From Pontederia crassipes (Eukaryota; Streptophyta; Magnoliopsida; Commelinales; Pontederiaceae), in the NCBI GenBank assembly GCA_030549335.1, contig JAUKPH010000028.1, positions 62,001-126,000 on the forward strand: DNA of 64,000 nt, given 5' to 3'. The notes beneath the pieces are model-generated. The model did no database searches, had not been told where the DNA came from, and was given only the letters and a program-made list of their open reading frames with translations. The first letter of the stretch is position 1; each line of letters opens with the position of its first letter. Position numbers and translations under genes: made by a program. Positions 6,236 through 56,800 of this stretch are shown here, piece after piece.

Positions 6236-7903
6236 TCACTCATCTTCTCTCTTGCAATTCTCAGGTAGGAGATATTTGTACTGATCAGCATTCTGAATTA
6301 GATATGCTGGAAGATGAACAGCAGAAAAAGAATGGGGTATCGGACCTAACTTCCCAATAATCTCTTTGAATGTATATTCCTCTGGAAGCATATCAAAAAG
6401 GTCAGCCCCGCGACATATCACTTTCTGAATCCTAGAAGGCTTTAGGTAGTATGAAAACCTCACACGATCCACATGGCTGTATGCCTTCATCTTAAACACA
6501 AACTCACTAATGTGACGGAAGCAGAAGCTACAATGCCATCCTGAATCCGACAAAATATCATCGGTTTGACGGTAATGGGCATATCTTGTTTTTCCAACAC
6601 GATACCTATGAACTGAAGCTCTCCAGCTTTTATTATCCACCAAAAACTCAAAAGAGTACAAATAGTTGCGTAAACGAAGATGAAGTTTCTCGGGAATTTC
6701 ATCACACCATCTTAGTAGATTAATTGTGTGGCCACTGGGGATCTCATCCACATCGGACATGATCAACAAGTCATCATCCCCAATGCCCGCAACCCTGATA
6801 AGCTGATCCAATGCTACTCTCTGATACGACTCCTCAACAAAAGGGTTCTCTCCCCTAACAAACCTCCCACCAATGGTTCCATATGTGAGCCGCGATTCCA
6901 CAAACTGAAACTGATCCCGATGCATGGAAAAGAAATGAGGCTTCTGATGTCCAGTGAATGTGGAATTAGACTCCAGAAGAACAAATTCTGACACATAAGG
7001 AGATAGTTCATGCCAGCGGATTGCAAGCATATCCACTTCATTGCTAAAGAGCACAGCATCAAATACTCTGCGAGGGGACTGACGAACTCCCCAACCATGC
7101 AGTTGGCACAGTTTCTCCATGGACACATTAGCATGGTAGTAATGAGGAAGTTCTCTGAAAGGTCTTGGAGGGGATTCCCAGAGAGGCCGAAGGAAGTAAG
7201 TGATCTTTTGGCCATGCAAATAGATGCCAATGACGAAGCTGGGAACAACCACACAAAGGAGAAGTAGGGCCTTGAAAACAAAGCCACGAAAAACATAGCG
7301 AAGTTTTGACATAGTTTTCACTGCTCTTGTCGCCTGCAACAATATGAAACACCGAAGATTGACATCAGCAAGGCAATTTGCACAATTAATCTTGCATATC
7401 AATTAAGCTCTTATCAGAATACAAACCCAAACCCTCCTCCAAGAGTTAGTCATGCATTTACATACTTGAACAACCATGGTCTGAAAATCACAATAATTGC
7501 CAAATTGCTTGATAAAAGAACCTAAGGTTATGAAAATCCCTGAAAGTTGAGAACTTTTCAAAAACGATCACAAATTATGTAATGTAAAAACGTAAGTAAA
7601 GAGGAAAAAAAAACAACAGGTTGATGTAAACGATCAAATTTACGCAGAATTTAAAAGTTACCAACTTTTCAAAAATTCAAACAAAAATTAAATTAAATAG
7701 TCCTTTTCTTCCGCATCTCGGTTTATTGGACAATTATTCATGCACCAAGAACAGAATACGCCCTAAAGACAACAAATTGAACATCCCAATCAGAAAAACA
7801 ATACGTTTGCCCCAGGAACAGATCAGAAGAAAGGCATCACCTGACTGCGGAATTCGTCACATATGTCGTCGGATTTCTTGGGCTGATACCATCCCTCGAG
7901 CAT
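6236..7903 (-). CDS. Family 17 glycosyltransferase (GnT-III-like)
   Basis: Two exons: 7841-7903 (21 codons, starting [13 protein letters not shown]) and 6236-7333, joined in phase 0 by a GT-AG intron; 386 residues. Residues 39-60 form one hydrophobic signal anchor, so it is a type II membrane protein, probably of the Golgi. The GT17 domain follows. It includes [17 protein letters not shown] (61-77), [12 protein letters not shown] (138-149), the acidic DVDEIP motif (215-220) expected to bind metal and nucleotide sugar, and a conserved C-terminal region ending LLPENC. The family includes animal beta-1,4-mannosyl-glycoprotein N-acetylglucosaminyltransferase III. Plant N-glycans are not known to carry bisecting GlcNAc, so the plant substrate is uncertain. 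The longer frame beginning at 7402 reads through the intron and is not used. Closely resembles full-length plant GT17 proteins. Confidence 0.93.
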
Positions 7904-29846: not shown

Positions 29847-32800
29847 ATGCATCGCCGTTCTCCGGAGCCGGCGTCGGTGCCGGCGCTGCTGGCGGCAGCG
29901 TTGGCGGTGGTCGCCGTGCTGGCGTCGCTGGTGGCGCCGACGACTCCCGGCCCCCACATTACGGAATTGAACGTACTGCTGCCTCCTCGCATGTCGAATC
30001 CAGTCCAGTACCGTCTTCAAGCCACCGGTGGTTGCTTTTCCTGGTAATCTCCTCCCGGCCGGCTTGTCACTGATTGGAAACACAGATTACTGAGTCGTTT
30101 TAGAATGTATATATGTCAATTGTATACGTCAATTGACATATGTCAATTGACATATGTATATATGTCCGACCCCACCTAGTGGGATAAGGCTTTGTTGTTG
30201 TTGTATATGTCAATTGTCAACCTTGTATCTGATTTGGATAGCTCTCTTGTATAACCCAATAACTTTGCTTGACTGTTTGTGGTCTTTGGTTCGAGATTGT
30301 TTCTTGGTAAAGCAGCCAGCAAAAGCATCCTAGAAGTTGCCACCTTGTCTTTTCTTGTCGAGTCAATTATACAATGCAGCTTGGAACATAAAAGGATTGC
30401 AATTTCACATTATCTTGACAGTGCCTCAAAGTAATATTAATTTCCAATAAACCTGCCCTAAAATAATTAGTATACACCAAACTTGGCAAGTGGACGTAAA
30501 TGATGTGGTGAAGTTCATATTGTAAAAATGGGGGTTAAGCAGTCTAGCCACCCTCATTTTTCTTGTGTAAACCCTGGTATCCAGTAGGAGCTACCTCTGA
30601 CTAATCTAGTTCGAGGTCGTGAGTGTAAAGGTGTAGCAACCTCTCGCATTGTGGCCCTAGGGTTTGATCCTAATGCTTCCTCATTCAAGAATTTAAGCTG
30701 CTATCAAACTGTTGGTTGCCATCTTCATCTGCCGAAACAGGTGCACGTAATTATTTTCTTTCTTTCTCTTCCTGTTGTCAGGTCATGGGATCATCATGAC
30801 ATTTTGACTGTTGAGCCAGAGTTCAACACCAACAGCATGTGCTCGACAAGTGCTCGTTTGATATCCATTGCCCCTTACAGTGGTCGAAGGGAGACAGCAG
30901 TTTATGCTTCTGATCTCCACAGTGGAGCAACAATTCGGTGCAAAGTTTTTGTTGATATGATATCACGAATTCAAATATTTCATCATGCTAAAAAAATTGA
31001 CCTAGATGAACTTGCAACGCTACGCATCCGTGCTTTCGATAATGAAGGTATGCCATTATTCAGCTCTTTATAGTTCACGAGAAATCACATCAACTATGTG
31101 AGGAGTGAGGACTAGGAGCTCTTGTACAATTACTAATTAAGAATGAGCCATCTTTTTATTCTTGCGAAAGGCTTGTGGCTATAAATCCTGGATTTCTATT
31201 ACTTTCTGTTGAAGAAGGTTGGAGTTTTCTTTTCTGCCCTGCATATTAGTAGGTTGTTTGTGTTTGAGTAGTTTCTGGAACACTGTAGAATTGACGAATG
31301 AAGAAGAACTATAATCTGAATCTAATGACACTTTCTCTCTTCAAAAAAAAAAAAAAGACTAATGGCACTTGGCACTTAGAAGACTATTTCTTGTACGACA
31401 TATGAAGTTATTTAAGTATCTGACTCAATTCAGAACAACAACATGGAAATTGTACTCTGCGCTCTGTGCTGCCTTGGCTCTACTGATGAAAATAATACTA
31501 GCACAACTAATAGTGGTGCTTGGAGTTATGTAAACCTATAGTATGTATCAATTGATGTTATCAAACTTTGCCACTTATGTTGATTTGTTTCTTCTTGATG
31601 CAGAAAATGTGTTTTCCTCATTGGTAGGCTTGCAGTTTCTGTGGAAACTTTTGCCTAAGTCTTCTGAGGATGAAAGTACAAATCATCTTGTTCATGTTCC
31701 ATTGAAAGAAACACCGTTAAGTGACTGTGGGTGCTTTTGTGGTCATCTGGAGACCCAAATCGATCTGGAAGATAGAGTAAATACGAGCTAATGCTTAAAT
31801 GAGATATTTGATTCTATAAAGTTCACTTAATTGTGGACATTGTGGTTTATATGTTTTTGTTTCCTCTTTTCTGCATTACTTTGTCTTTCAGGGTGTAGGT
31901 TCAGACTTGTATGTCGTACAAGGAGTTGCAATCGGGCATGAGTTTGTAATTGCAAGTTTACTTGAACCACAACTTGAACACGTGGTGGATACATTAATGC
32001 TAACTGTTGCAGAAGCTATGTCATTAGATCCTCCATCCCCAATTTTCATCACGATTGGTTCTTTAATTCGCTACAATCTTAGAGTTATCCGTATGAAGAC
32101 TACACAAAGTAACTATCCTTTATCTTTAATACTAAATATGTTCATTAAGTAGTATAATAGTACTTGATTATTTCGTTTTGTCACATAGCTTAAGATTCAA
32201 CAACCTATTGTTTATAAATTCGTGACATTCCTCAAATGGACTTTAAATGGTTGGTGAAGTTGATGTATGGATCCTTTTTTACTCTCTGTTTGTGGTTGTG
32301 GACTTTGTAATCAAGAAGCATATTTTTATACCATGTTTTTTAAATAAAAAGTTCTTTCTCTATTGTAAAGGTATTTTTCTGATTGGACATGTTTTCCCAA
32401 GAAAACTTTTCAATTTTAAAAAAATACTATCTTCTATTACTTTTCATTTCTCTCTTTTTTTAGAACTTTTCATTTCTCTTTTTGAACAAGGAATTTGATT
32501 TAGTACCATCGCAAGCAGTTGGCAAGGTCGAGCGGAAGGTAAGGAGTGTGTATGATGTGATTTTGAATGGTGTATTCTGGTCTTTTAACCGCTCTTGACT
32601 TTTGGGAGAACTCTAAGACTAGATTATACAAGAGAGAATTTTGATGTAAGCAAAAAATGAATACTTCATGTCCTGCATATTTTGCTTAATAGAATTTCAT
32701 ATTTATCTTGTAGTGATTGATCTGCCATCGCCTCATCATCGGTGGCATGTGATGAATTCTTCAGTCGCCCAGGTGGATAGCATATTGGGAGTTGCTCATG

Positions 32801-35800: not shown

Positions 35801-38800
35801 TGGTCATCCAAAAAGTTTTTTCCTTCAATCGACCTTTAAACTTCTTGAAGAGATTCTCCTAAAAAAAAACTTCTTGAAGAGACCTACAAAGTAGTTAACT
35901 CCAAGTGCACCCGTTGCCAGCAATCCCTGCCAGCAGCACTAACTCCGTCCCGGGCGTGGGTCGCCGGAGGCGCCACCCTGTTGCAAAGCCTCTCCCTTGA
36001 ATCCAAAATGCGGCGTAGGGCACTGCGCCTTCACGATGGGTGGGGTGGACCATGTTTGTCTGCGCTCGTGACAATCGCTCTCCCCGCCAGATGCCAGCAC
36101 ATTGCTACAGGTGCCTAGAGGTCGGCCATTTCGCACGTCGCTGCTCGGGTCCCCTTTGATGCCTCCGGTGCCGAGGAGAGGGCCACCGGAGATCATCTTG
36201 TCATCACACACCACCGGCACATGCTCTGTTTCGTGGCTCACCAGAGCGCCCCCTGACCCATGCGCTTCCCTCCCCCATAGTCCTGTGGTCACCGGAGATT
36301 CAACATGGCATCGATCTTCGGTGAGGTTAACGGCACCTTCCCAGATGTGGTAGTCCTCCGTACCACGGCCATCACGGGAGCAGGTGCCTCGCCGCGTGGC
36401 GTCCCTGTAGCTGCTCATCCTGGGGTCCCTGCAGCAGCGAGATGCCCTCCTCGCTACCCTGACCACCCTGTCGCTGCACCTGCAGGTTCTATGGAGGCCA
36501 TGGAAAGCAGAAGATGGAGCGGTCGTGGCGCCTGCCGGGACACGTTCTGTGGACATTCATGGCCTACCGCTCCATCTCGTATGGCGGTCGGTCGCTTTGA
36601 CGGTGGCGCGACAGATTGGGAAACCCACCTCTGTCGCTCTTCCCACTCTTGGCTCGCTGGACTTATCCACCATCTCCGTCAACGTCGAACTTTGCCCAGG
36701 CTGTATCCTCCCCACGTCGGTCATTCTCTGTGCGGGCGCCGGCCGCTTCATTCTCCGGCTGCAGTGCTCGGACGGCGATGCGTCGTGGGTGGAGGTGGTC
36801 GCTGGTCCCCGGCCAGCAGCGCCGCAGTCGTCAGCGGTCAGGACACCTGCAAACCAGCTTGTTTTGTCAGTGCACGCGAGGGGTCATGCGTGCCAGCCGT
36901 ACCGACATTCAAATTTTGGATCCCCACCAAACCTGCAAGCCCGTCGCCTGCCAGCTGAAGTCACCCGGATCCAGATCGTGAGCGGATTCCACCGCCTCCC
37001 ACCTTGAGCCCAACACGCATCAAACCTCCAACCCAACCATGAACCCAATCCTCCACTCCACGAATCCAAACCCTCTAACCGAACCTGATCACACCCGTGC
37101 CAGATCCTGGGTCGTTATCTCAGGGAGTGGGAGGTTGATATGGCCCTCCTTCATAACACCAAGCTAGCTGATTGCAGCTTTGGGATTTGGGTCCAGATCG
37201 GGGGTCGTGTATGTCGGAGCACCTTTCCCTTCATGCAGTGGGCCAATCAGGAGGATGCATTATTGGCTAGCAAGCGGACCTCCTCTCTTTGGTGGATTCT
37301 TGGACAGCTTATTTCTCGATGACGGCTCATCTCCGGAGACGTGGGCACGGCGCTGGTTATGCATGCTTATATGGACCCTGGTCGGCATCCTTACGCGACA
37401 CCTTGCAGATGCCCAATCGATAAGGGGAGGGATGCTGGAGCAGAGGGATTTAGAGATTTTATTGATTCGTAGTCGTTGGCGGATGTTCATGCTCTTGACC
37501 GGCCGTTCTCGGACCACACACCCCTCATGTGGCAGTCCAACGACGGTCAGGCGCAACGCTCACTCTTTCGCTTTGAGCGATCATGGCTCCTAGAGGATGA
37601 CTTTCGCTAGGCAGTGGCGGAGCATTGCAGAGTGTGGCGGCCTCAGACTCAATTGCTAGGACTTTGGTGGCTTGTTTGGATAGCGTGTGGTCTTTACTTT
37701 ACCAGCAAGATAGATAGATGACGACAAATTCGAGAGGATCGGGCACGGCGCAGGACAAAGGCTATGGGGGTGGTTGCTTGCGCAGATGGACCGCTTGGAG
37801 GACTCCCGTCACCTCACAAACACAAAGGCAACCGAGTGTCGACGCACTCAAGAGACCATCCGGTAGAGGCAGTGCTCTCGATAGAATTGGCTTCAGGAGG
37901 GAGATGCCAACATTCGATTCATCCACTTATATGCGAGCTTTCGCCGGAGGGCTAATAGGATTGAGCGGATTGAGGTACAGGGTCAACAGGGCAACAGATC
38001 ACTGGACACCATCGAATCGGAGTGACCATCACCTCCTACTTCTGTGCATTATCTCGGCGGCAGACATTGGGCCCTTGGCTGGGCTCTTGGGGACATCCCC
38101 CAACTTATTGATGCGCAATTTTCTCTTTTGATGTAGGCTATCACCGAGAAAGAGGTCACTGAGGCCCTCTGGGACCTTAATAGCGAGGCCCTCCGGTCAT
38201 TGAGCGTATGGAGCACTGACTTCATGATTCGAGTTCACAATTGCTATCATGTGGTGGCAAATTCATTCTACTTCGTTTGGTTCTTTCGGCGCTCTTGACA
38301 TACTACATGACGACCCTCCCATGGTTCCCTCTCAGGCTCTGGCGATTTTCCTTTTCGTGACATGATTGGTCACCGGGGGGCCACTTTATATGGCATTCCC
38401 CGCCTGTTGGCCTTGGCTACGCACCCTGAGGCGACTCCGGCGGAGACGTGGGCTGAGGTTGGTAGCCTAGGCTCGGGCTCATGGTCCCTCCTGTTTGGCT
38501 CACACCTTTCAAATCAGCGTTTCATGGAGCTCCTGACACTTCATTAGTGGATTGCCTGCCCCTCTCTTCCCAGACCATTCTAGATCAGGCAGTTGGGTAT
38601 GGCTATCAAGAGTCCTCGGCGAGCAGCCTCTACATTTGTTTCCTGCTCACCACCACTTTGTCAGAGGAGTTCAGGACTGACTGCTGACTCATTTGGCGCG
38701 TTCGGGTATCGCTGAAAGTCAAGATCTTTGCTTGGCTCATGCAACGTGGTAGGCTTCTTACTAGGAAGTATAGGGCGAGATGGGCGCCCCACAGTGACAC

Positions 38801-41800
38801 ATTCTATGTACTGTCTGGCGAGGCAGAGGAGAACATCACCCATCTATTTTTAAGTGCCCGACATTTCGAGGGATTTGGCGGCAAACGAGCATCGCGGGCA
38901 TGTTATCACCTGACTCGGGGACCACACACAAGATTTGGCCCGTAGAGACAGGTGGAGAGCAGAGCGTCGCTGGCGTGCGTGGGGCCATTTGGCTTCAGTT
39001 ACAACTGAATAATTTTTTGTGGGGAGAGATGTCAGGCTAAGCGCATTGTACACACATTCTCTTTCTTATTTGGGAGTGGGGATTTGATTAGTCGAGATAC
39101 TTTCCTTCCTTTTGCTGCTCTCTTTGAGAGCCTACACTTGTATATGACCTTCATTCCACGGTTATATATATATATAGATGGATGACAACCACAACATTGG
39201 TGGTCATCCTTTTTCTCCTCAAAAAAAAGAAAAAAAAACACCAGGTACAGGCATTCCCAGGATATCAGAACAGGCCTTTCCACAAATATATATAAATGGT
39301 TAGGTTTGTGCTGATGTATTTTATCTTGTGAAACAGCAAACACACTTGAAGCTATAGAGGCTTCTTTCACTGCTGATCGTGGTCCTGGAAGACTTCGCAT
39401 TTCTCATATCACAGTGCCAAACGGATGCACAATACGCACATCTGCTGTGAGTGTTCATGCAACCGGAAGATTTTTTGCAAACTCATCCTCTCTTTATGTG
39501 ACGTGGGAATTAAGTGATTGTGAAGAACTGACATACTTCAAAAGCAATGAGGATGCTACTTCGGCTACTTGGGAGAGGTTTCTGGTTCTGCAAAATGAGT
39601 CAGGACTGGTATGTTTCCACTACTACATACTTTTCATGTGGTTAATGTTGCCGTATTTTGCAGCATCTTTCTTTTCTTTTGAAAAAGTGGTTCACTATGT
39701 AGCTGCCTAATATGGGTTGTTCAGTTAGATTTGTTTTGGGCTGATTCCTAAAATAGACAGGTACACATCATATTTGGGGCTAAATTCTGGAAGCGCATGG
39801 CTGTTTTTTAACTAACATTTTTTCTCTATCTTACAATGTCACAACGGGTCTTCTGGATTCCCTTTTTTAACAAACACTTTTCTAGTGCCACTTCCATTCT
39901 CTTGCTGATGGGTCTTTATCTCTTGTGATGCTTGTGTGCTTTGATTTGATTAAAATGCTTATGGGCATTTGAGGTGGTGATCAAGTGACAAGTGCAAGTA
40001 TTTAGTGCAATCTCCAAACTTAAGTTTCTTGCTTATTGGCAGTGCACTGTTCGTGCTACTGTAGGTGGACCTTCCAGAATGATTGCAGATCCTCTATATG
40101 GGGAAGTTTATGGATTTCTTGAGGGATCTGAAAGCATGCTCACAGATGCAATAACTTTGCAGGTTTGCTCAAATATATGGTTTTGTGTTGTGATTTCGAG
40201 GAGATAAATTTAGTTGTTTTCCTTTCAAAAATTGTTATTCCTTCATATTTGCAGTTGGTTTCTTCTTTGCGAGTACTACCAGAGTTCACCTTGTTAGTTT
40301 TTCATCCTGAGGCAAAGGTATGATTCTTTCAGCTTAGACATTCCTCAGTAATCGAAAGACTGCTGCTTTTTCGCATTTTTTCCTTCTCATTTGTTGTTCA
40401 AATATGTATGTGCTTCCATATGATGAGATTGTGAAGTTCATAAAAAATTTAAGAATGATGTTTAATTCATCTAGTTTGCTTTTTGTTTTCACAAACTTCC
40501 ATTTTGTATGCCTTGTAATCTTCAGTTTCCAGAAATCCATAATACACAATATAAATGCTTGTTTCTTTGTTTTTTCTTTCATTCTCGATGATGTTTTCTG
40601 TTTTATTATTTTAGGTGAATCTTTCTGTTACTGGGGGAACCTGCTTCATAGATGCTTATACAAATGATACACAAGCAGCACAGATAAGCCAACTTCCTGA
40701 TAGTACCACATGCTTATATTTGACTGTTCATGCAAGGGGCTTAGGGACAACTCTTGTGACAGTTCGTGACATTGGTCTTTCTCCTCCTGCTGTTACTTCA
40801 GCCCTGGTATAAATATGTGCACTTTTTTTTCAATATATATTTTATTTGACAATCTCTTTCTGATGTTTTGAGATGATGAGCCTTGCTATTGTCTTCTTCA
40901 GACTTATTGGTTTCATTGTCTCAAGTTTGAAATATACAATGTGGTTATTTCATTGTCTCAAGTTCTACAAAAAGGTCTCCTAAAAAAAATTCTACAAAAA
41001 GGATATTGTTCTCATGACAAGCACCTCAAAAGATGTAACTAATTTCTGACTGCTAACTGTAATTGCTTTCTGTAATTCTGTTTGCATTTTCAATAATGTC
41101 ACAATGTATAAAATTCTGTATAGTTTGCTGTCGTTTTCTTTTTCTGTTGAAACTTGATCAATAATATTGTTGAGTAATGACAATAGCCTATAACGAAGAT
41201 GTTGTATCTCTTGCAAATTTCAGCGATAACATGCTGATTTTCTTAACTGCCACAACCCTTCAATTCCCATGACAAACTGTAGACTAAAATTTTTGGTAGG
41301 AATTTTACATTCTGATGGTTAATCAAAACTTCTTGACTAAAATTTAAGTAGAAGGCTTCTGGAGGTTTTATCTACTTGCTTTTATAGTATTGAATAGTTT
41401 GCACCTGCTTTCTTCAGAAGCAACTTTTGGACTGAAGCTATTTAGCATTCAGGGAAATTAATGTTAACTGTCTAAGGGGCAAATCCTTTGAGGCAAGTGC
41501 TCAATGCTAGCAGCAGTAGACGAGAGCGGGCACTTATATATACTAGTTTGCCCTTGCTTTCACAGAAAGACTAATGCACCCCTTGAACACATGATCCTTT
41601 GGTGACGAACAGAGTAACCTAATTGTTGCTCCATATCTTGCCTTCAAAACTCTATGAGGTAGCACCATCTGGAAAATGCATGACTTGCATCTTTTTTTTT
41701 CCTTCAACATTTTGGTTGGTTTTATTAATTGGATTTGCTTCATGTTGAAATGACTCGTCACACCTTTCGTCTGAATATCAAATTCTCGTTATCCTTGGAA

Positions 41801-44800
41801 AATGCTTGTTTTTTTACAATTTTTTCTGTTTCAATTATCAAACTGAGTCTCCTCAAATAGAAGTGATATATGCTCAGAAAATCCTATGATAAATACAGGT
41901 TAAGGTTGCTAATGTCGATTGGATTAAGATTATATCAGAAGAAGAGATATTCCTCATGGTAATGGTTTATCTGCTGGTTAGTTCTTTCCCTTGCAGAACA
42001 ATGCATGATGCATCTGCTTTACAATTTGTAGGAAGGATCTACTAGAAGTTTTGACATTTCGGCAGGGACCGAGGATGGAAGCATATTTGATTCTTCCCAG
42101 GTATATGTCATTTACTCATTTTGTTTAGTCTCCTCAACGTCCATGTATTTGATTGATATATCTAACTACTTTTCGTATAGTGTAAACTCTTTGAGAGTCC
42201 TTGCATCTGCTCCCTCCTTGAAAGTTGCATATGTTACATCAGCTTTCTTACACATTTTGTCCTGGGGTCATAGTAAATGGATCGGCTTGAATTTTCTTGT
42301 TTGAACTATCATTAGGATCTTGTCTTCTTGTGAGCTTCTCACATTTCACTAACTTGTCATTGAAAGTGGTTTTTTCTTTGTGATCTTTTTCCTTGAAGTA
42401 TATGTACATGAAAATAAGAGTGCATTTCGAGGATGGCATACTTGAGCTTGTCAACAGGAACTTTTCCTCAGGGGATTCCATAGTTTGTGAACCTGTCTTT
42501 TCAATAAGAGCAACAAGCCATGGTGTTACTACTGTCTATGTAAGTACAAAATAGTACATGCCTATCATCACAGTATTTTAATGACTTTTTGCTTTTTGTA
42601 ACATGTGATTGCTGATAAAGTATTCAATTTCAGCTCAGTGTCAGACAACTGTCTGGTTATGAAGTTTTCAGTCAACTTGTTAAGGTTGAAGTATATAGAC
42701 CACTGCGAGTACATCCTGAATATGTTTATCTTGCACCTGGTGCTTCTTATGTGGTAATCTTTTCTATTTTTTAGCTTGCTATGTAGTGCATGACTACAAC
42801 ATGTCAAGTGCTTGTTCTATGGAAGAGCTCATTTCTTCTCAATTTTGTTATGCACATACTGCCAAAAGCTATATGCTCAATCTGAATATATTTATTGCCT
42901 GCTCTTCAAGTATAAAGTTTAATTATACTCTGTTCGTATGTGTTATGTTATTTTTTGAAAATCGAGATGCTTCATCCGAGTATTATCATCTATGCAGCTT
43001 ACTGTTAAGGATGGCCCAAGTGTTGGAGCTTTCATTGAGTATTCCAGCATGCATGAAGAGACTGCCATAGTCGAGAAATCTTGGGGAAAAGTTTTAGCAA
43101 ATGCCAAAGGAAATGCTGTAAGTAGTTGAGCCTCCTTTAGGTTTGTTTCTTTAACTACTTTTGCTTACATTTCTGTCGACTCACAATCAATCTAAGGATG
43201 GTTGGCTGTACTCTTTTTTTCTTGAAAGAGCCAGTCTTATTTTATGATTAATTTAATAATCTTGTCACTTAATTGAAGCAGTCATAATGTTGTTGCTTCT
43301 GTGGATTAGACTATTCGTGCATCTGTTTATGGGAATGGGGGCATGCTGATTTGTGAAGCATATGCAAAAATACAAGTTGATATTCCAGAACAGATGATTT
43401 TGAACCCACAAAGTGCTCAACTTTGTGTGGGGTGCAAAATGCCAATTTTTCCCGTTATTCCCAAGGTACGCAACTGTGCTGGAAAAAATCGAGTCAGTGT
43501 CTAGTAACTTTTATCAGCAATTATCTCATTCAATGATGTGTGATGCAGGGAGATTTGCTTTCCTTCTACGAGGTTTGTCAAGACTTCAAGTGGACAATTG
43601 CAGATCAGAAGGTGAAGCTAATTTAATCTTTAATGATCTCTGTGCATCTTGAAACTATTGCGGGTTATTTTCTTCCTTTAAGTGGAAATTTAAGACCTTT
43701 TTTAATACTAGGTGATCACATTTCAAACGACTGAAAGTTCGCATGCTAATGCTTGTGAAGGAATGGAGTACCCATGTTACACGTTTGATAATGCTCATCC
43801 ATATATTAATACGTTGTCTGGGAGGTTTGCACCCTAACATGGATACAATCTGTTTGACAAGCATATATTGCTGGGTATTTCTGTCCAATAGAAAGAATAA
43901 GTTGATTCTCTTTGGTGTTGAATATGCTATACGTTTTCAACTACTCTTCATGAAGTTTGTCCTTATTACTGTATATAAAGGAAAATAGTGTTGGCCATTA
44001 GATTTTATGAGTATTCTTTAGGGATCGATCTGGGAGAGTTCTAAGTTCAAAATTTGGCACCATAATTCTTGCAGATTTTACCATAATAGATAAACAGAGA
44101 ATAGCATAAACGAGGACATTCTCCTGAACAACTAGGTTATTTCCTTTTTTTTTTTTTGAGAAGGAAAAGGATGACTACCAAGCCTTGTAGTTGTCATCAA
44201 GGTATATATATCACTATGAAAGGATTAACATGTACAAATGTAGGCTCTCAAGAAGAGAGCGGCAAAAGAGGAAGGATGTACATATACATGAACTTAACCA
44301 AAACCCCACTCCCCAAAAAAGTAAAGTAGTGTGATGTTCAATATTCTCAACTTTCTTGCCCCCCACAAAAAAACAATCTGGTTGCACTGGAGCAAAATAG
44401 CTCAGGTACTGGCCAGAAAGGTCATCAACAGTGCCCCCAACTCTGTCTCTGCCTGGCAAGAGTGCGGAATGACTGTCAAAAACTCAGAATGTCTCTACTT
44501 CTGAGGGGAGTGCTCCTGGCGTGCACATCAGTGACCAAAACTCTCTGGAAGCTGTGCACTCATAAAAAAGATGAGCGATGTCCTATGCCTTGCCACACAG
44601 TGGGCAATGTGTTTGTGTTAGGCGCCCATCTTGTCTTGTATACTATGGTGAGGATCCTGTCACGCTGCATGAGCCAAACAAAGATCTTGACTTTTAGTGA
44701 CACCCGAAAGCGCGCCATCTGAGTGTGCAATCTGCCCTGAAAGTGTTTCCACTAGGTTATTTCCACTTGACAGAGTCTCATATAGTGCTTCTACATGTTT

Positions 44801-47800
44801 ATGTGAAGTTCGAAATAGGTACCATGGGATGCATTTGACACAGCCATTATGCACTTGGTTTTTTGAAGTTTGAAATTTAAAAGATGTAGGATTATTATAG
44901 TTAGCGAATGGTAAAGAATGAGATGAATAGGGGTACTTACAGAATCAATATGTAAAATTATCGCTGGTCTAGATAGAAAAAATTAGAGGCTGAAGCATGG
45001 AACATCTGCCTTTTTATGTTCACATTGATTGTCGATATTGCAATTTCCAACTATTCTTTTGACCACCATTTGTTAATGGCCACTATTGCACATTAGGTTC
45101 TCCGCTGTTATTAAACTTTCTCTCGGATTTTCAAATCCTGGAAGTAATAAAATGTGAATCCAAATTTGTTATCATTGATGATGCAAACTCAAGTAGGTTG
45201 CAATAAGAAGCATGGGAGTGGGGTTTTGAGTAGCTGAGGTACACCTTTTTCTCTTTCCCACTCTATTCTTGAGAGCTCACACTTGTACATTTTGACCATT
45301 TCATAGTTATATATATACATGGATGGCAACCACAAACTTTGGTGGCCATCCTTTTTCCCCTCAAAAATAAAAAATAAAAAGCATGGGACAGAAAATGACT
45401 CCTGATACTGAAGCTGTAATCTTTTATTAGTATAATGTATTGTATCAAATAGCTCATCTTTGATTGCTTTGTAAACTAGCACATTTTTTTTTCATTGTTG
45501 TTACATGCAAATAGGAACATGGAGGCAAAGTTTTATTGCTTTAATAACCTTTGGAGATACTCCTTAATGGATTTCCTCTATGAACAGGTCTGCAGGCAAA
45601 ACAAAAGTTTCTCTAATGGTATCATGTGATTTCATAGTATTTGGTTCTCCTAAAAAAGTGTTCTATAATGCATCAAAAACTTTAGAAGTGGTACCTGACC
45701 CTCCTTTGTCTCTTGGAATACCTATAACTTGGGTTCTACCCCCTTTTTATACAACTTCAGAACTTTTGCCTAGATTGTCCAACTCCTATGGACAACTAGA
45801 TTCAAATAACCACAGAAGGACCTCTTACTCTGTTATGAGAGTCTGTGGAAGGCATGACCAATCAAAAGATGTTACAACTGTTGATGGAGGAAAAATTAGA
45901 ACAAAAGGAAGCAAGGATCTCACTTGCATCCAAGCAAAAGACCAAACAACAGGAAGAACAGAAATTGCATGCTGTATAAGAGTCGCTGAGGTTAGTTATT
46001 CTCTGAAAATCATTTATATGTGAGATTCTGTTCCTTTAGAACTATTGCATTCGCTTTAGTTCAAACTATAATGTGTCATCATTTTCCCTCTCTCTCAAAA
46101 AAAAATCAAACTATAATGTGTCTGTGGTTAGCATGTTGTCCTTCATTCATTTTCCTTCATGAAATTCAGATCATTAATTATTATGTCAGTCTTATGTTTG
46201 GTTGACCCTAAATTGTAGGATTGTTATCTCTGAGTGATGCGAGAATTGATAACAATTAAATGCTAATAAGTGCACTAGTCGCACAAGTAATAAAGTGTAA
46301 GAGTAGAGTGTCGAACCCACGAGGAATTAATTTATTTAACTATACTAATTCCAGAGGCTAATAAGAGACGACATAAAGTTTGGGTAAAAAGAAGTTGTAG
46401 AAAATAAAATTACAGAAAAGTAAATAGTAAAACTAAATTAATCTAATCTAATCTACTGATGCATAGGGCTTATGATGATAACCGAAATTGTAGACAAACT
46501 GAATTGACCAAAGATGACAAGTTAGGTTCTAACGACGGATTAGAGTCTACTCATATTATTGATTTCCGTAAAGGATCAATCAACCTATCTTAATTCAAAT
46601 TAGATTAAGTCTATTCCATCATGGATCATAATCTAATCAAACATGATATTAAGATGCATTAAAATGCAGTCTCTAAATTATTATCACTCATAACATGATA
46701 ATGATTAATAGACCACACAACTAATATTCTTTATCTTACGAGTTGTGATATGCAATACTTGGACTTAAACATCAAGAATTAATTCCACAAAAATCATACA
46801 ATCAAAAGTAACTATTCCTACAAGGATGATAGCTAATTATGGAAGGCAATTAATCTCTGGAAAAGCATTAATAATAGCATGCATATTCGGAAGAAAACTA
46901 AACTATAATCAATTATGAAATAAGGTTTAACAATTTGCTTTTAACGATTAAAACTATTACACAAGTCTTAAACAGAAAAAACTAAATTATCTGGATTACA
47001 GAGGATAGAAAGATGTATAAACTAAGCCTAAAATCATTCCAACATTAAGTAGAACAGATAATACTCTTCGGGAATTACCGATGAACTGCCGCTGAATTCT
47101 CGTCTCGTCTTGAGTCGATCCAGCAGAAATCTTCTCAACGATCCTTCTGAGTCTTCTCACGTTCTTGGCTTTGGAGAATAGGTTGTAGGCCTTAGCATCC
47201 CTAGCATGCTCCCTTCTGGCTGTAGAAGAAACAAAAACATTTTCTTATTCAAAACAAGGAAAATTCGGAGTTGAATTTGTTTTGAAATTTTGGCCTTGTC
47301 AAACTCCGAATTTTGGGTTATAATATATTTCCAAATCATCCTAGAATCATATAATATGAGTAGGAATCCTTGTGCACTTCAAATTCTTCCAAAAATCTGT
47401 CTAAAAGTCGAATATGGGCTTCATCACGGGCTGTTAGAATGATTTAACGACTTAAACAGTATTCGAATCGCATTAGGAATGGGTTTTCACGGCCTGTGAG
47501 ATGGTTTTCACGGCTTAAAAACATGGATTTCACGGCCCGTGCAGGCCTGGCCACGGCCGTGACTCGGGCTGGTTGAAAAATCGCATTTTAACGGGTGAAA
47601 TAGAGTTTCACGGCCCGTTAAATTTCCATCACGGTCCGTTAAAGTAGCATTTCAGCCTTGCTTCACTGTTTTTCACTTTCTGGCTCCGTTTGATTTGAGC
47701 GCGGTTTTTTCTGTTGGCTTCGTAATTCAATTTTCTTGCTTCCTAGATAATAAAATACAACATTTGGATAGATCTTTATTTTTGTAAAATTAATGTAAAT

Positions 47801-50800
47801 AAGCCCATAAAATGATACATGCTATTAGAAAATTCAAAATGAGATTAAATGCAAGGCTAAATATATGTTATATTTTGCATGCATCACTGAACCACAAGTA
47901 AGAAAGTTCCATGCATGTAATATATAATTAACGCAACACTAGTGTAGCTCAAACTCTGAATATGACAGCATTTTATCTTAATAATTAATAGGATTGGGAT
48001 ATGCTAAGCAATCTTTAAAGAAGTAGAAGAATTTGTTTGAATGGTTGACAATGATATGGTGACAAACAATGTTGTCAAACACGTAAAACGGACACGACAC
48101 ATAGGGCTGGGAAACAATGTAACTCGTGAACACGTAATATTGTAATTGGCATGAACCTAAAGACAACAAACAACAACAACAACAAAGCCTTATCCCACTA
48201 GGTGGGGTCGGCTACATGGATCATACGACGCCTCGTTGATCCATGTTCATAAGATTCGACATGATTTTATGTTGGCTGTCGGGGCCTAACACAACCCTCC
48301 TCCTTTATCCGGGCTTGGGACCGGCTATAAAATATAGGCGGAGTTTGGCATGAACCTAAAGACAACATTGTAAATTCTTTATAGTAAAGCAAAATTTGCA
48401 TCACGTTATCAAATATTCAAAAAGCAACATGTCAAAGGACCAATATCCAAATTCCAAATTACCAAAAGTAAAATAAGTTTTGACATCCAAGTCATCAGAA
48501 TTCAAAATAACAAATCCTAATTCAGTAATTCCTAACTTAGTCTTAAACAGGCTATATAATCTTAATCCTTAAAAAAAGCTATATAATTTTAAACCTAATT
48601 AAACAGGTTACTTACTGGAAAACAAGTCGTAAAGTCTTATATAATCTTAATCCTAAAAAACTCCTGCTTGCCGGTACGACACCAGTAGGGAAACCTCAGC
48701 GTAGGCCTCCTTGCTCACGAGCAGGAGCCCTGCACTGCGCTTCCTGCATGCTGAGGACGTGAACAGGGAGACCACAACTCAGGGCTCCCTGCTTGCGAAT
48801 TGAGGGGAGGAAAAGAATGGTGCGTGCAAAGAAAAGAATGGAGAGAGAGAGGAGGGATTCAACATAAGGTGTCAGCGCACGACAGCACGCAGCAGGCGGC
48901 AGCAATGCACGGCAGCAACGCACAACGGAGGTAACTAGGGCATTGAATCTTGGGTTTTTTCCTTATGGTTGTGTTTGGTGATAGGTTCCTAATCCAATTT
49001 TGATCCTAATTAGATCACTTCGAGGGGATCAAACCTCCAATAGACCACTACGAGGGGGTCAAGCCTTCGAGATATTTGCTCTAAGCAATTATCAAAGAAG
49101 ATTATATACTCGTATATGATTAAAAAGAGTTCCAAGGGGCCCTATTTTATAGGGTAAACTCAAACAAGTCCTAGTGGAACTAGAAATAAAAGAAATATCT
49201 CCTCAAAAAAAAAAAAGAAATAGAGTGCTAATCAAACTAGGAAGTAAATAACTAATCCTAATAAAAGGAAAATGAACTATTTCTACTAATATTATGAATT
49301 AGGTTCCTATCATTCCCGCCCTCTTCAAAATAGCCTTGTCCTGAAGGCTATGCAGAAACATGTGAGAGAACTTTTCCTTTCGATGCTTTATCGGATGCTG
49401 CCTCTTGATAATTTGAATAAAATAAAAATCCATCTTTAGAAAGTAGCTTTGACTATGCATCGGTAGCATTGGAACAAGCTTGCATTCGCTGAAGAAAGGG
49501 AATTTGAAATTGATCAAATTCTTTTCGCATGAATAAAATTGACCTTGAGCCTTTGGAGCATCACAATTTTCAAATTTTCTTAAGGCTGAATTAACCGTCA
49601 TAAGCATGAATAAGTCCTTTTTAATATATGATTCTTCAATACACGATGATTGCATGATAATAATGCATTTTGCACTAGATTCTTCAGAAGTTGTTTTCTC
49701 ATTTGACTTAGAATTATAGATGTCTCATCTTTAAAAAATATAAGCAGCAACTATAGTAATGGGCCATCGAGCTTTCACTTCTCGTCGAAGATCGGGGAGA
49801 AGTCCTTCAACAAAAGTTTTCACCAATCGATGTTCGCTCCAATTTTTAATTTGACTTGATAATAATTCGAAACGAGTTTGATACTCCTCAATCGTACTTA
49901 ATTGTTGAATATTTGCAAGCTCATCTTCTACGTGATTTCCCTTGTTTACTAGTTGATATTTGTTTTAGTCGTTGAATACTTGTAAAATTCTTTGAAAGCG
50001 TTCTTCAATTCGAGTAAGATGATCGGCTAATGTTAAAATCTTTGAAGTCGATAAATCCTATGAAGCCATAGATTTTTCCTGCACATTTGAAATATTAGAT
50101 TATGAACTTAAACTATTAAAAGGTTATGATAGACGTTGGTTGATAGTAGTAAGCGGCAGTGATGGCGATGCAGTGGCAGCGGAAGACGAAGATAACTAGG
50201 TTATCGGTCCAACCAAAAATTCGAGATATCACAATTGTCGAAAAAAATCGAACAACTCTGATACCAATTGATAGGTTCCTAGTCCAACTAGGATCCTAAT
50301 TAGATCACTTCGAGGGGATCAAACCTCCAATAGACCAATTCAAGGGGGTCGAGCCTCCAAGATACTTGTTCTAAGTAATTATTAAAGAATATTATATTCT
50401 CATATATGATTAAAAAGAGTTCCTAGGGGCCCTATTTATAGGATAAATCCAAACAAGTCCTAGTAGATCTAGAAATAATAAAAAAATAGTGTTAATCAAA
50501 CTAGGAAGTAAATAACTAATCCTAATCAAAGAAAAATTAACTATTCCTACTAATATTAAGAGCTATATTCCGGCCCTCTTCACAATAGCCTTGTCCTTAA
50601 GGCTATGCAGAAACATGTGAGAGAACTTCTCCTTTCGATGCTTGATCGATGATGTCTCATGATAATTTGAATAAAATAAAGATCCTTCTTCGTAACGTAG
50701 CTTTGGCTAGGCATTAGTAGCTTTGGATCAAACTTGCATCGGCTAAAAAAAGAGAATTCGAAGTTGGCCAAATTCTTTTTGCACGAATAAATTTGTCTTC

Positions 50801-53800
50801 GACATTCTTTAAGGTTGAGTCAACTGTCATAAGTGAATGAGTCATTATTAGTATCTTCAATCAATGACTTTCCAATAATAATGCCTTTTGTAGTAGATTC
50901 TTCAAAAGATGGAATTGTCTTCAATATCTTCTTGTTGAGATAAAGTTTTTAATAAAGATTTCTAAAGAAACTGAAGTGTTGGACTCTTCTGTTTTTTATG
51001 AAAATATTATTGCACTTGTGCTTCTGAATGATTTCTTCAAGTGTCGATTTGATCTATGCCTCTCTTCGTTTAAACGTTATTCTTCCCTTCGGGCAAAAGA
51101 AATAGCAACGAACTATAGTAATGAGCCGTCGAGCTTTCACTTCTCGTCGAAGATCGGGGAAAAGTCCTTCAACAAAAGTTTCCACTAATCGATGTTCGCT
51201 TCAATTTTTAATTTGACTTTGATAATAATTCGGAGGAAAGCCACTGGAGTTCTTTGTGATAGAAAGGTACCCAATAAAGTTAAAGGAAAATTCTATCGTA
51301 CTGCTATAAGGCCAGCAGTGTTATATGGTAGTGAATGTTGGGCTATGAAGGGACAACATGAACGTAAAGTGGGGGTAGCCGAAATGAGGATGTTGAGATG
51401 GATGTGTGGTCATACAAGATTAGATAAGATTAGGAATGACCATATACGTGAACGAGTCGGAGTGGCTCCTATTAGTGAGAAAATGGTAGAGAATCGTTTG
51501 AGATGGTTTGGTCATGTTCAGAGAAGACCATTAGATGCGCCAGTAAGAAGAGTAGATCAAATAATCTGGAGTCCGATTAAAAGAGGGAGAGGGAGGCCAA
51601 GGCGGACACTTGGCGAACTAATAGAGCAAGATCTATTGGTGAATAATATACCGAAAGGTTTGGTTACTAATAGAGCGGAATGGCGTCGTATGATCCATGT
51701 AGCCGACCCCACCTAGTGGGATAAGGCTTTGTTGTTGTTGTTGTTTGATAATAATTCGAAACGAGTCAGATACTCCTCAACCGTAATTAATTGTTGAATA
51801 TTTGTAAGCTCATCTTCTACGTGATTTTCCTTGTTGATATTTGTTTTAGTCGTTGAATACTTGTAGAATTCGTTGAAATCGTTTTTCTATTCGAGTAAGA
51901 CGATCGGCTAATGTTAAAATCTTTGAAGTCGATAAATCCTGTGAAGCCATAGATTTTTCCTGCACATTTGAAATATTAGATTATGAACGTAAACTATTAA
52001 TAAGTTATGATAGAGGTTGGTTGATAGTAGTAAGCGGCGGTGATGGCGATGTAGTGGCAGCAACGGATGCGATAGATGGCAGCGAAAGACGAAGATAACT
52101 AGGTTATTGGTCAAACCAAAAACCCGAGATATCACAATTGTTTGAAAAAGATCGAACAGCTCTGGTATCAATTGATAGGTTCTTAGTCCAACTAGGATCT
52201 TAATTAGATCACTTCGAGGGGATCAAACCTCTAATAGATCACATCGAGCAGGTCGAGCCTCCAAGATACTTGCTCTAAGCAATTATCAAAGAAGATTATA
52301 TTCTCATATATGATTAAAAAGAGTTCCAAGGGGCCCTATTTATAGGGTAAACCAAACAAGTCCTAGTATAACTAGAAATAAAAGAAATAGAGTGCTAATC
52401 AAACTAGGAAGTAAATAGCTAATCCTAATAAAAAGAAAATTTACTATTTCTACTAATATTAAGAATTAGGTTCCTATCATTTGGATGGGAATTTTTAAGT
52501 TCTTGCTAGTTATCGAGAACTAATTGATTAGATAGAAAAATTTAGGTTTGGTGTTTGGATGAAAAATGTAATGATGATAATTTAAAAAGTTGATTTGATA
52601 GATAAGTTTTGGTGGGTGTTTGGATAAAAAGTAAGAAGTAAGAATATAATTAATTATTTTATGAGATATGAAATTACTAGCTGGGTTATTTCCTTAGATC
52701 TCTCTTAAACTATTGCGATTTTCTGCATCTAACCCTAATATATGAACTCATCTAGCGCCTCCCTAAATTATTTTACAATTTTCACTTTAGTTCATCCGTC
52801 TAGTTCTATTAATTTTCTTGTCATTTTTTATTTATTAAATTACTAAACTACCCTTCTCACATCTCTTATAATATTTAAAAGTTTAAAATAATACAATATA
52901 ATAAATATAAAAAAAAGAAAAAATGTGGGGTTGCCCTCCTCTGCAATCTCGTCGTCGGCGAGATCACGGGGGTAGGCGAGCCATCGGCGGCGAGGGACTC
53001 GCCATGTCGGAGGGGTTCGATGGCAGGGGCTCTAGCGGCAGCAGTGTGGGGGGGGGGTGGGGCTCTGTCGCGGGCGATGGGGAGGTAGCAGGAGAGCCAT
53101 GGGAGGGAGGGATCGACGGGGAGGGGGAAGAGCCTTCATCGTGGGGCGATGGACTCGCCGGTGTCGGAGGGGATCGGCGGGGGAAGGGGCTCGGGGTAAG
53201 GCAGCGGCGGCGATCGTGGGGAGGCAACAAGAGAGCCATCAAAAAGGGGGGAGGGGACGCTGGTGTCGGAGGGGATTGAGGGGCAATAGCAGAGCCAACG
53301 CCAAGCTTTCACCAGCTCTTCACTCCCTCATACACTCGACAACAATTCCCCTCCCCTCGTCGTGGCTCTTCCCTCCCTCGGACTCTGGCGAGGGAGAGGA
53401 GGAACATCATTTTTACATTTTTTTATTCAATATAATTATTTATTGTTATATATCTTTTCAAACATTAAAGAAAGGAGAAGGGTAGTTTAGTCATTTAATA
53501 AATAAAAAAAATTGAAAATGATGGGAAAGTTAACGGAACTAGACGGATGGACTAAAGTGGAAATCTCGGAATAGGAATAATTTGGGGAGGCCCTACGGTG
53601 AGTTCATATATTAGGGTTAGATGCAAAAAATCGCGATAGTTTAAGGAAGGTCTAAGGAAATAACCCTCGTAGCATATAAAAATATTATATATAATTACTA
53701 ATTTAAAATTTTATTAAAATATAAGTTGTGTCGCAATATATTAATATTAATCTTGATTAAATAATTTGTATGTTATTAATATTATAATTTATGTAAATCT

Positions 53801-56800
53801 TAATATCCAAATATAATATTTTTTTTTCTAACAATAACTGAAAATTTTAATTAATAAAATTCTATTATAATAAATATAATATTATACGTAATATTTTACA
53901 TTAATTTTATTTATTTCATATTACAATACAATAAATACAATTATAATGTTTACATCAATTGAGTTAATTACTATGATTCTTTTATAATTTTATTATACTA
54001 TAATACTAAGCAAATTATTATAACTAATTAATACTTTTTTTAATTATTAGAACTAAATAATTTTATTTCTAATAATATATTAATAAATAAGTATATATAT
54101 TATTGTATTAAATAATGTTATATATATGTACAAAAGTGACCTAAAAAGTAAAAAAGTGAACCAGGCAAGAACTTTGGAACCAAAGTTCTGGTCATGTGCC
54201 TGTTGACCAGAACTTTGGTTCTGGTTCTCTCTCTCTGTCTCTCTTTGCATGGTGCTTGCCTGAACTGGTGGGAACTAAGCCAAGTTCTGGCCCTAGTTCC
54301 CACCGCCAAACAGGCCTATGGCTGGCTACCGGAACTTGTGCAAGAACTTGCCCAAGTTGGTAAGTTATGCCAGACACTTGAATTGACGGGAACTTTTAAC
54401 TTCCCGTCAGTTCAAGTCACGTGACAACTTGAAAGTTCTCCCAAGTTCTCGCTTCGAGCGAGAACTTTTCAAGGTCTTGCTCGAAGCGGCCGAACTTTTT
54501 TTTTTGCCTTTTTTTCCTTCTTGCTTTCAATTAGTAGAATATTATTATATTATCTTAAATAATAATCATATTTATTAATATATTATCATTTTGCTTATAA
54601 AATAATTTTTTTAACTTAATATAAATATTTTCATAAATTACAATATTAATAGCATATTTAAAAATTAGTCAAAATTAATATTAATATATTACGACACAAT
54701 TTATTTTTAAAGAAATGTTAAACTAATAATTACATATTATTATTTTATCTAAATACATATAGGATTTTAGTTTACTATAATTTTATACCTTATAAAATAA
54801 TAAATTATATTCATAGTTCTTACTTTTTATCCAAACACCTATTAAAATTTATCTATCAAATCAACTTTTCAAATTCTCATCGTTACTTTTTTCATCCAAA
54901 CATCATACCTAACTTTTCTATCAAATCAACTAGTTGTCGAGAACTAGTGGGAACTTAAAATTCCAATGCCAAACACAGCCTATGGGTTTGGGATCACGTG
55001 GTCACACCGAGTGACCACTAAATTTGGCCAAACAATAAAGTGGGATCACTGGAAACGAGCGTGTCCAGCGATCTCATGATGTGTCCCAGCATAGGATGGA
55101 GCACGAATTGGCGGCGTAGGGTCATAGAATCGTCCGATTCTATGAGTTGGGATGCGATTTTGACAACATTAGTGACAGACATGATACTATATGCATGCAA
55201 CATGCATCACTTTTGCTTATCTTTGTTGACTGTTTATATGGTTTATCTTTTGGGAACTTTTTCTGGCTGAGACCTGTTGGGAGTAGCTGCCACTTTCAGT
55301 TTAGTTACTATAAATTCATATGTTATATGCTTTAATCTAGTGGGATAAGGCTTTGTTGTTGTTGTTATATGCTTTAATCTATTTTTCTTTCAGCTACCAT
55401 TTTAACTTACTTTCAGCAACTTAGAAGTACCACAGTAGAGTTATTTGTGTACATTTCAATGGAAAACCTTTTTTTTTGAAGGCATAATTGTTCTCTTCCT
55501 ATTTAGGTTTCACAAGTACGGGTGGCTACAACAGAATCTTCACTCCATGTTGCTTACTTAGCTATCAACGCAAACCTTGAGTTGCTTGTTAGTTACTGTG
55601 ATGATTTAGGTACTTTGCAATATTTTATTTAATAGATATAATATGTTCTTTTTATGAATTATATTAGATAAAAGTTTCATATTTATCTATATTTTCCCAT
55701 TTGGCTGTTATGCTAGCCTGCCTGAATGTTGTTTATCAGGATATCCTTTTGCTGAAGCATATGGTGCAGTTCCTTTCGAGGTTGAGACTAATCGTCCTGA
55801 TATTCTGTCAATATTCATGGCAAAGGGCGTCAACACTACACATAATGGGAATGAGATTGTCATTCTGCAGGTTTTGCCGCCGTCCATTTTTTGTTTCTTA
55901 AAACTTGTTAAGGATCTCATATATGAATCTCTTAATGGTTTTGTTTATGTACTTCATTTCTCCCTCAAAAAATACATGCTTTGCATTTATCTTTGTGCAT
56001 TGCTAATCTTTTCTTTAACATAAAGGCCAAAAATCCTGGTTCAGCGCTTGTAAGGATATCCATCAATGATAACCCAAGGCAGGCAGACTTTATAATGGTA
56101 TGAATTCTTCTTCCTATTTCAAACCTCAGGAATACAAATAAGTCATCCTCACTTGGTTTCTTAGATTAAAACCATTTTTCCTTTGTTTAATAAGATTGTA
56201 ATAATTTTAGATTATTCATTATCTTTATCAAATATTACTAGCATATTAAAATATTTTAAAAAGTACTGGAAAAAGAAAAAATCCTGTGGACAAGATGATT
56301 CCTGGCTGCCGTTTGTAAGGTGGTTGCATGATGACAGCTCTCCCTGCTTATGCAGAGAGTTTGTACCCACAGCTCAAATCTTGGAACTCCCAATCATCAG
56401 AGGAGCAGCTTAACCCTTGCACCAAATTCTGCCTCATCTGACCCTTTGTTGCAAGGTTTTAGGATATGAATTATTTTTAAACATTTATTTTGCTGCAACT
56501 TTGTCAGGTGTCAGTTGGTGCCCAACTGTATCCCAGAAATCCAGTTGCTTATGTCGGTCAATATCTTAACTTCAGTATTGCTGGTGATGGTGAGTACCTA
56601 GCTGGTCAGTAGAGTATTTATGCATGCATGTGCCTTTTGGTTTCTTTCATTATAATTTATATGTAAAGTTGTTAATTCTTTTGTTATTGCTTCTGCATAT
56701 ACACATTTCAATTCTTTTAACTACCTTAGATCCATATCTAAATCGTACACATGTCTAAATGAAAGTTGCGAACTACTTTCTTGTGTTCACTAAATGATTG

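Follow-up and report, generated by a model that had tools for sequence, protein, structure and literature searches.

A poly(A)-tailed micro-insertion in one LTR of a Gypsy-like array of Pontederia crassipes suggests a class of L1 copies aborted within a few nucleotides

Results

A Gypsy-like LTR array with an insert in one LTR

The window analysed here is a 64,000-nucleotide stretch of the Pontederia crassipes genome (contig JAUKPH010000028.1, positions 62,001 to 126,000). It contains a Gypsy-like array of three long terminal repeats (LTRs), the first of which carries a micro-insertion composed of a few letters of an L1 3′ end and a run of adenines. The array has the order LTR1-internal-LTR2-internal-LTR3, and the element reads on the minus strand, where TTGGTATCAGAG beside LTR2 resembles by eye what we take to be a primer-binding site. 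The features are as follows.

48974..48978, TTTGG, left copy of the 5-bp target duplication of the array, to the left of LTR1 (second copy at 52480-52484, to the right of LTR3)
48979..49312, LTR1, outer LTR, with the insert
49188..49222 (+), micro-insertion in LTR1 as defined by alignment: repeat AAAAGAAATA at 49188-49197, insert at 49198-49212, second repeat at 49213-49222
50269..~50575, LTR2, inner LTR, with an empty site and an altered far end
52173..52479, LTR3, outer LTR, with the empty site AAAAGAAATA at 52380-52389

LTR1 and LTR3 are taken as the outer pair of one insertion, because they have TG..CA ends and are flanked on both sides by TTTGG. The insert in LTR1 is TCTCCTC followed by A8 and lies between 10-bp direct repeats, the division between insert and repeat within the resulting run of 12 A being arbitrary. 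A previous sequence-only reading had described the insert as ATCTCCTCAAAAAAAA, i.e. ATCTCCTC-A8, with a 9-bp duplication. The gain of 25 bp agrees with this description, but the repeat is 10 bp long; the border had been placed one base off within the same 25 bp. The single 9-mer that was described in LTR3 at 52380-52388 is indeed present in one copy, and the full empty site extends to 52389. When the three LTRs are aligned base by base, as had been proposed, one 25-column gap appears at the same place in LTR2 and LTR3. LTR2, which the reading had left unused, therefore provides a second empty site, though it is substituted there. The length difference had been said to equal insert plus duplication exactly. 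This holds locally, whereas the whole LTRs differ by 27 bp (334 versus 307), because LTR1 also has two separate 1-bp gains. LTR1 and LTR3 are identical in 281 of 307 compared columns.

Only one member of the outer pair, which shares TTTGG, has the insert, and the insert is therefore younger than the pair, as the earlier dating of the event after LTR separation had it. The Kimura two-parameter distances are 0.090 (LTR1-LTR3), 0.144 (LTR1-LTR2), and 0.125 (LTR2-LTR3). A substitution rate of 1.3e-8 per site per year comes from grasses and is perhaps wrong for this plant; at this rate the outer pair would be ~3.5 million years old, and the insert would be younger.

The insert site in other copies of the family

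LTR3 was searched against the whole assembly (1,132,208,429 bases in 43 contigs). Out of 1040 candidate places, 40 were scored, giving a list of 42 matches; 30 of these were fetched as loci, and 45 LTR rows from them were aligned (43 distinct, two LTRs being seen from two loci each). Only one of the 45 rows, LTR1 itself, has the insert, so that a family with the insert in most of its LTRs, the outcome which would have made LTR3 a deletion, was not encountered. It should be noted that the query LTR3 is an empty copy and the list is therefore biased to empty copies; copies with other gains of ~32 bp were still listed, while LTR1 is absent from the listed matches and was seen only through the flank of L017. 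Two loci, L009 and L014, share an unrelated 32-bp duplication of repeated LTR letters next to the insertion site, which is likely a subfamily mark. One row of L014 has a 9-base deletion, and the remaining rows are empty apart from substitutions and indels of 1-2 bases.

These rows bear on the opposite polarity, in which the insert is ancestral and all LTRs other than LTR1, including LTR2 and LTR3, have lost it. Precise loss of this kind could proceed through a 10-bp direct repeat, but LTR2 and LTR3 would each need an identical one, and a single row in 45 has the insert, even allowing for the bias of best matches to an empty LTR. We regard the probability of this explanation as negligible. The empty sites in both sister LTRs make insertion into LTR1 by far the simplest explanation, and the view that such tails are true insertions is borne out at this site.

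Longer L1 ends share a hairpin and a pyrimidine spacer

Three longer L1 elements in the window have a common end, consisting of a hairpin, an 11-nt pyrimidine spacer, and an A-run.

38688..39239 (+), 3′ part of a frame-broken long L1: zf-RVT, 3′ hairpin, spacer TTTTTCTCCTC, A-run from 39221
45202..45388 (+), 5′-truncated L1: 155 bp in the 16-bp duplication AATAArAAGCATGGGA (1 mismatch), hairpin, spacer TTTTTCCCCTC, A-rich tail
44131..44764 (−), 5′-truncated L1: 606 bp in an exact 14-bp duplication, hairpin, spacer TTTTCCTTCTC, A13

A zf-RVT domain (PF13966, E 1e-9, amino acids 1-58 from 38688) lies 5′ of the L1 3′ end in the first element. Six pieces of this L1 at 35.8-39.0 kb, in broken frames, were scanned; they gave zf-RVT and a sub-threshold DUF4283 match (E 0.01), and none of the six matched an endonuclease or reverse transcriptase domain. 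A target duplication was looked for at 38688-39239 and none was found. The designation of the insert in LTR1 as an L1 tail is supported by these elements, which end in the same kind of letters with poly(A), one of them 3′ of zf-RVT. The 3′ letters of L1 in this genome are TTTTTCTCCTC-A at one window L1 and variants of it at two, and exact hairpin-arm ends number 457 genome-wide (see below).

For the 81-nt pieces that contain the hairpins, the folding energies are −16.3 (z −2.0), −17.4 (z −2.3), and −9.8 kcal/mol (z −0.6). Over eight L1 ends, 96.5% of 85 stem cells are paired, versus 14-74% in slid versions. A profile built from the three window ends gave 12 matches at E ≤0.0018 in the window and 48 loci, of which three are its own seeds and the weakest are perhaps unreal; L001 and L017 were excluded before the search. 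In the whole assembly, GTGGTCATCCTTTTTCTCCTCAAAAA with at most two mismatches occurs 2310 times, and its reversed control once. The 2310 copies represent a large L1 family.

Further stubs in the window and in the fetched loci

Other places in the window have the same architecture as the site in LTR1, i.e. a few pyrimidines and an A-run inside a direct repeat. Four of them were accepted as L1 stubs in addition to that in LTR1, and two are candidates that were set aside.

46061..46122 (+), 19-nt stub ATCATTTTCCCTCTCTCTC with A9, exact 17-bp duplication
35838..35882 (+), 7-nt stub TTCTCCT with poly(A), exact 16-bp duplication
40963..41002 (+), 6-nt stub TCTCCT with A8, exact 13-bp duplication
31322..31370 (+), 9-nt stub TCTCTCTTC with A14, 12-bp duplication with one mismatch
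32439..32481 (−), candidate, TCT with A7, 15-17 bp repeat
48551..48592 (+), doubtful candidate, TCCTT with A7

The duplications are 12-17 bp long at the four further stubs and 10 bp long at LTR1. All five stubs have A-runs of at least 8, that at LTR1 being A8 beyond the repeat. Compared with the longer L1 ends, the 19-nt stub ends inside the 3′ arm of the hairpin. The candidate at 32439-32481 has too few letters to be assigned to L1, and that at 48551-48592 was set aside because a similar string occurs at ~48637-48661 without a duplication.

A window scan for duplication-flanked poly(A) micro-inserts gave six matches (35838, 40963, 46061, 48551, 32439, and 12791), against a mean of 0.125 and a maximum of 1 in 40 block-wise dinucleotide shuffles. 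Three of the six are doubtful or otherwise explained (48551, 32439, and 12791, the last a local repeat). The insert in LTR1 escaped this strict scan owing to its A-rich repeat.

In the window and 47 loci, 1090 A-runs of at least 6 were found, 52 of which are preceded by at least five pyrimidines including two C's. Among these 52, the duplication score is at least 18 in 18 (1.8% under a null of up- and downstream flanks re-paired randomly) and at least 20 in 11 (0.5% under the null); the flank score of the LTR1 site is 20, a value reached by 0.5% of null pairs. Eleven of the 18 were accepted as stubs by eye: five in the window (A-runs at 46097, 35861, 40982, 49205, and 31343), two each in L044 and L022, and one each in L033 and L043. 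The other seven were not counted, again by eye; they are a minus-strand GAACTTCTTC repeat, 48571, and 45652 in the window, and sites in L031, L029, L044 (one), and L046. The stub tails resemble spacer variants of the longer L1s and are 5-9 nt long in 10 of the 11, the exception being the 19-nt stub (46097). A 57-nt tail with a 16-bp duplication is also present in L043.

The shortness of the tails bears on whether old, longer L1 insertions have been deleted down to their last bases. Deletions in old L1s are common. They would rarely reach the duplication exactly and end near the A-run each time, whereas 10 of the 11 stubs have only 5-9 pyrimidines between the left duplication and the A-run. Later trimming is thus extremely improbable.

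In a stricter duplication test, A-runs with a pyrimidine tail were positive in 3 of 9 cases in the window, versus 2 of 97 others (P 0.004), and in 2 of 9 versus 9 of 320 (P 0.03) in 190 kb of sampled sequence. The "random" set of 200 kb comprises 20 of 140 planned stretches, taken from parts of the 18 contigs reached by LTR matches. L001 and L017, which are the window itself, and L034 were removed before duplication scoring and the stricter test. L034 (G000 C12:11854714-11864713) is a 10-kb satellite-like stretch with many units of TGCGAAATTT and CGCGCG, and its satellite-like repeats produce false duplication matches. Stubs and hairpin-bearing ends number 5 versus 3 in the window and 6 versus 9 outside it.

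A-run insertions with imperfect duplications, in which the tail is absent or unlike L1, were also observed (L043 at ~3867 and, on the minus strand, 4005; L036 at ~2081; L047 at ~5436). These insertions may reflect a still earlier abort or priming on different RNAs.

Genome-wide counts of short ends

The 7-nt end TCTCCTC-A8 occurs 1614 times in the 1.13-Gb assembly, and its reversed control 30 times. This 54-fold excess bears on the repair of staggered breaks, in which filler DNA could account for both the duplication and the short insert with no retroelement involved. Break repair makes tandem duplications and fillers in plants. The same pyrimidine tail with poly(A) at unrelated sites is, on the other hand, unexpected from such repair, which we consider scarcely credible as the source.

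The full end CATCCTTTTTCTCCTC-A8 occurs 457 times (control 0), and the spacer of L1 has a T before TCTCCTC. In 536 of the 1614 short ends (control 18) the preceding base is not this T. The base there is A in 53, C in 30, and G in 17 of the first 100 listed rows. Compared with the composition of the window (A 30, C 18, G 19, T 33%), preceding bases with A first are host-like, with G somewhat low. Among hairpin-arm ends, only 28 have a base other than T at this position (25 C, 3 G, 0 A). Since the mutated full ends have nearly all C, mutation supplies hardly any purines.

The purine-preceded 7-nt ends amount to ~375, a figure extrapolated as 70% of 536 from the 100 listed rows. The motif ATCC of the hairpin arm is intact in place at seven of eight aligned hairpin-bearing ends, whereas it occurs at most 12 nt upstream of only nine R-TCTCCTC-A8 ends (control 0), three of the nine being mutated L1 ends. 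The great majority of these ends therefore start at TCTCCTC without a recognisable hairpin arm. Sorted by length, the purine-preceded ends rise from 157 at 6 nt (control 38) to the above ~375 at 7 nt; the 8-nt class has 173 of them (control 3), and the 11-nt class, which corresponds to the hairpin base, has 27 (control 1). The peak among the counted lengths is at 7 nt, ~4 nt short of the hairpin base. The real peak is probably sharper, because host bases that match L1 by chance move some ends up one place. A rough hand estimate that allows for such bases and builds on the ~375 puts ~230 stubs at 6 nt, 640 at 7 nt, and 110 at 8 nt. Truncation spread evenly over kilobases would be expected to put very little into the 6-11 nt interval.

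Could the short ends come from another source, such as a tiny non-autonomous element or a gene RNA ending in RUCUCCUC-A(n)? The 536 ends that lack the T of L1 are compatible with one, but the base before the stub is mixed rather than fixed, and the tails resemble not one but several variants of the L1 spacer. We judge such a source very unlikely.

Other features of the window

Very short, duplication-flanked insertions are also found for RTE-like tails in (TTG)n (window 55321-55381 and 30110-30217), and further ones were seen by eye (L018 at ~1221; L022 at plus-coordinate 882, on the minus strand; L042 at ~3531). Several of these insertions start at or just 5′ of a small hairpin-like CCCCACCTAGTGGG, and one (55321) starts inside it. 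The RTE-like tails are a second family with extreme truncation, on the opposite side of its hairpin. Two RTE 3′ ends, 48167-48232 and 51682-51747, form an inverted pair of 66 nt with 100% complementarity. The second of them, at ~51240-51745 and with the duplication TTTGATAATAATTCG by eye, sits within the array's inner domain.

The window also contains a GT17 protein at 6236-7402 (Pfam E 4.5e-180), which has named relatives at 80-82% in Colocasia, Anthurium, Ensete, Canna, Iris, and others, with one record at 85%; the first listed match, from Turnera, is partial (60%). Judged by this protein, the plant belongs to the monocots. A tRNA gene is found at 12209-12280 (Rfam RF00005, 70.8 bits).

Discussion

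A proposed early stop in target-primed reverse transcription

The insert in LTR1 is the poly(A)-tailed last 7 nt of a local L1 family, inside a 10-bp target duplication; LTR2 and LTR3 have this site in its empty form. The 25-bp gain is very probably the product of a single L1 insertion event halted almost at once. Target-primed reverse transcription is established for LINEs (long interspersed elements) generally, and it would account for the duplication, the A-run, and the 3′ letters found here. By analogy with LINE biology, the L1 endonuclease would nick the lower strand opposite the A-rich AT/AAAA of the upper strand, and the T-rich 3′ end would prime reverse transcription on the poly(A) of the L1 RNA. 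The complementary DNA would pass the A's and 7 nt of the spacer and then end; the upper strand would be cut 10 nt away and the stub sealed in.

As to why synthesis would end there, the leading edge of the reverse transcriptase may meet the hairpin, or the protein may still hold the hairpin used for RNA recognition, in line with the stringent recognition proposed for one plant L1 lineage (PMC3747384), so that many attempts would abort before the enzyme clears the 3′ structure. We consider the chances that the hairpin causes the stop to be evenly balanced. A broader proposal is more tentative and, in our estimate, somewhat on the doubtful side: most attempts of a hairpin-ended L1 family may abort after poly(A) and ~7 nt, the reverse transcriptase having to clear a bound hairpin in a manner like promoter clearance, and the sealed stubs of ~15-25 bp, hardly visible to repeat annotation, may outnumber the visible copies.

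The main rival to an enzyme stop is a cut template, in which the L1 RNA is cleaved in the spacer 3′ of the hairpin and a UCUCCUC-A(n) fragment is copied to its end. A template end would be expected to give a peak only a few nucleotides wide, like that of the counted ends, and the A-run insertions with other tails or none hint at other short poly(A) templates. Stops occur, however, at several other places as well, namely within the hairpin arm in the 19-nt stub, at the 57-nt tail in L043, and at the 155- and 606-nt truncations. Moreover, we know of no processing step with a preferred cut 4-5 nt outside a hairpin. A cut template is therefore unlikely, and an enzyme stop is favoured over it.

Several observations weigh against an early stop at the hairpin or narrow its reach. 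The peak rests on counts at 6, 7, 8, and 11 nt, the 7-nt figure being extrapolated. The duplications were seen in the local set only, the genome-wide ends being counted as strings. The stop lies ~4 nt short of the hairpin base, and contact with the hairpin is therefore deduced rather than seen. The hairpin shows weak covariation, with one compensatory pair, a level reached by 80 of 500 shuffles, and of the three hairpins in the window one (z −0.6) has a fold barely more stable than its shuffles. A score of at least 20 is reached by 59 of the 1038 A-runs that lack a pyrimidine tail (null 2.1%); since these too exceed the null for duplications, the A-runs are a mixed class. Within the LTR-flank loci alone, the stricter test gave 0 of 4 pyrimidine-preceded A-runs and 0 of 80 others. 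Outside the window the stubs are no majority (6 versus 9 hairpin-type matches). Finally, the target sites vary, some being A-rich (AAAC, AAAA) and others TTCTAC, TCAAAC, or CTAATG. Read by eye against the preferred TT/AAAA, the nick sites of LTR1 and 35838 are AT/AAAA and TTT/AAA, whereas those of 40963 and 46061 are CAAG/TTCT and AGT/TCAA. The endonuclease preference is thus only partly L1-like.

Comparison with known systems

Taken singly, the stub at 49188 is ordinary, and the interest lies in the class behind it. The counts suggest that L1 copying is often aborted, with a tendency to end at one particular distance from an RNA hairpin. Stub ends that cluster at such a distance from a 3′ RNA structure would be a natural and countable record of the first failure of reverse transcription. 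If this is true, L1 activity is undercounted, as stubs are too short for homology annotation and look like A-runs or indels.

5′ truncation of LINEs is widespread, and its cause is debated. A review argues, in its part on this question, against poor processivity as the cause and points to host factors (PMC4859970). Severe truncation itself is already known, and what seems new is a frequent and nearly fixed stop. We found no report of a dominant few-nucleotide L1 class in searches of the open-access literature, only some of which targeted short inserts, and this is weak evidence of novelty. The same review lists an Alu insertion in SERPINC1 with 6 nt and A40, by our interpretation of the table columns, and notes it as the shortest human disease insertion. 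It resembles the present stubs as an L1-made insertion of few template nucleotides and poly(A), but it is a single case with a 1.4-kb deletion, and a genome-wide class or a fixed stop is not described in that part of the review (PMC4859970).

For the plant L1 lineage "ME1 / monocot 1a", the relevant sections of Ohshima 2013 (PMC3747384) describe a 3′ stem-loop and propose that the lineage needs stringent 3′ recognition; CGAG is conserved on the 3′ side of the stem, and the loop contains UCU. The L1s studied here are alike in having a 3′ hairpin before poly(A) in a monocot, with high pairing and weak covariation. They lack the CGAG and the UCU loop given in those sections and have instead a pyrimidine spacer (TTTTTCTCCTC and others) and a loop of CAACAT and variants. 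Since spacer and loop differ, this is not the same 3′ sequence as that of the monocot 1a lineage.

The use of another repeat copy as the empty site has a parallel in a published method based on empty sites in nested transposons, whose description retains insertions of 50-10,000 bp (PMC2912911). That work is a method, and the present stubs lie below its stated size range.

A close likeness is to 5′-truncated LINEs of the L1 clade, which share with the stubs the poly(A), target duplications of 10-17 bp, the loss of the 5′ part, and the 3′ letters of the local L1. The difference is one of extent and position, as only 5-9 nt of L1 are left in 10 of the 11 stubs and the counted ends peak at one place.

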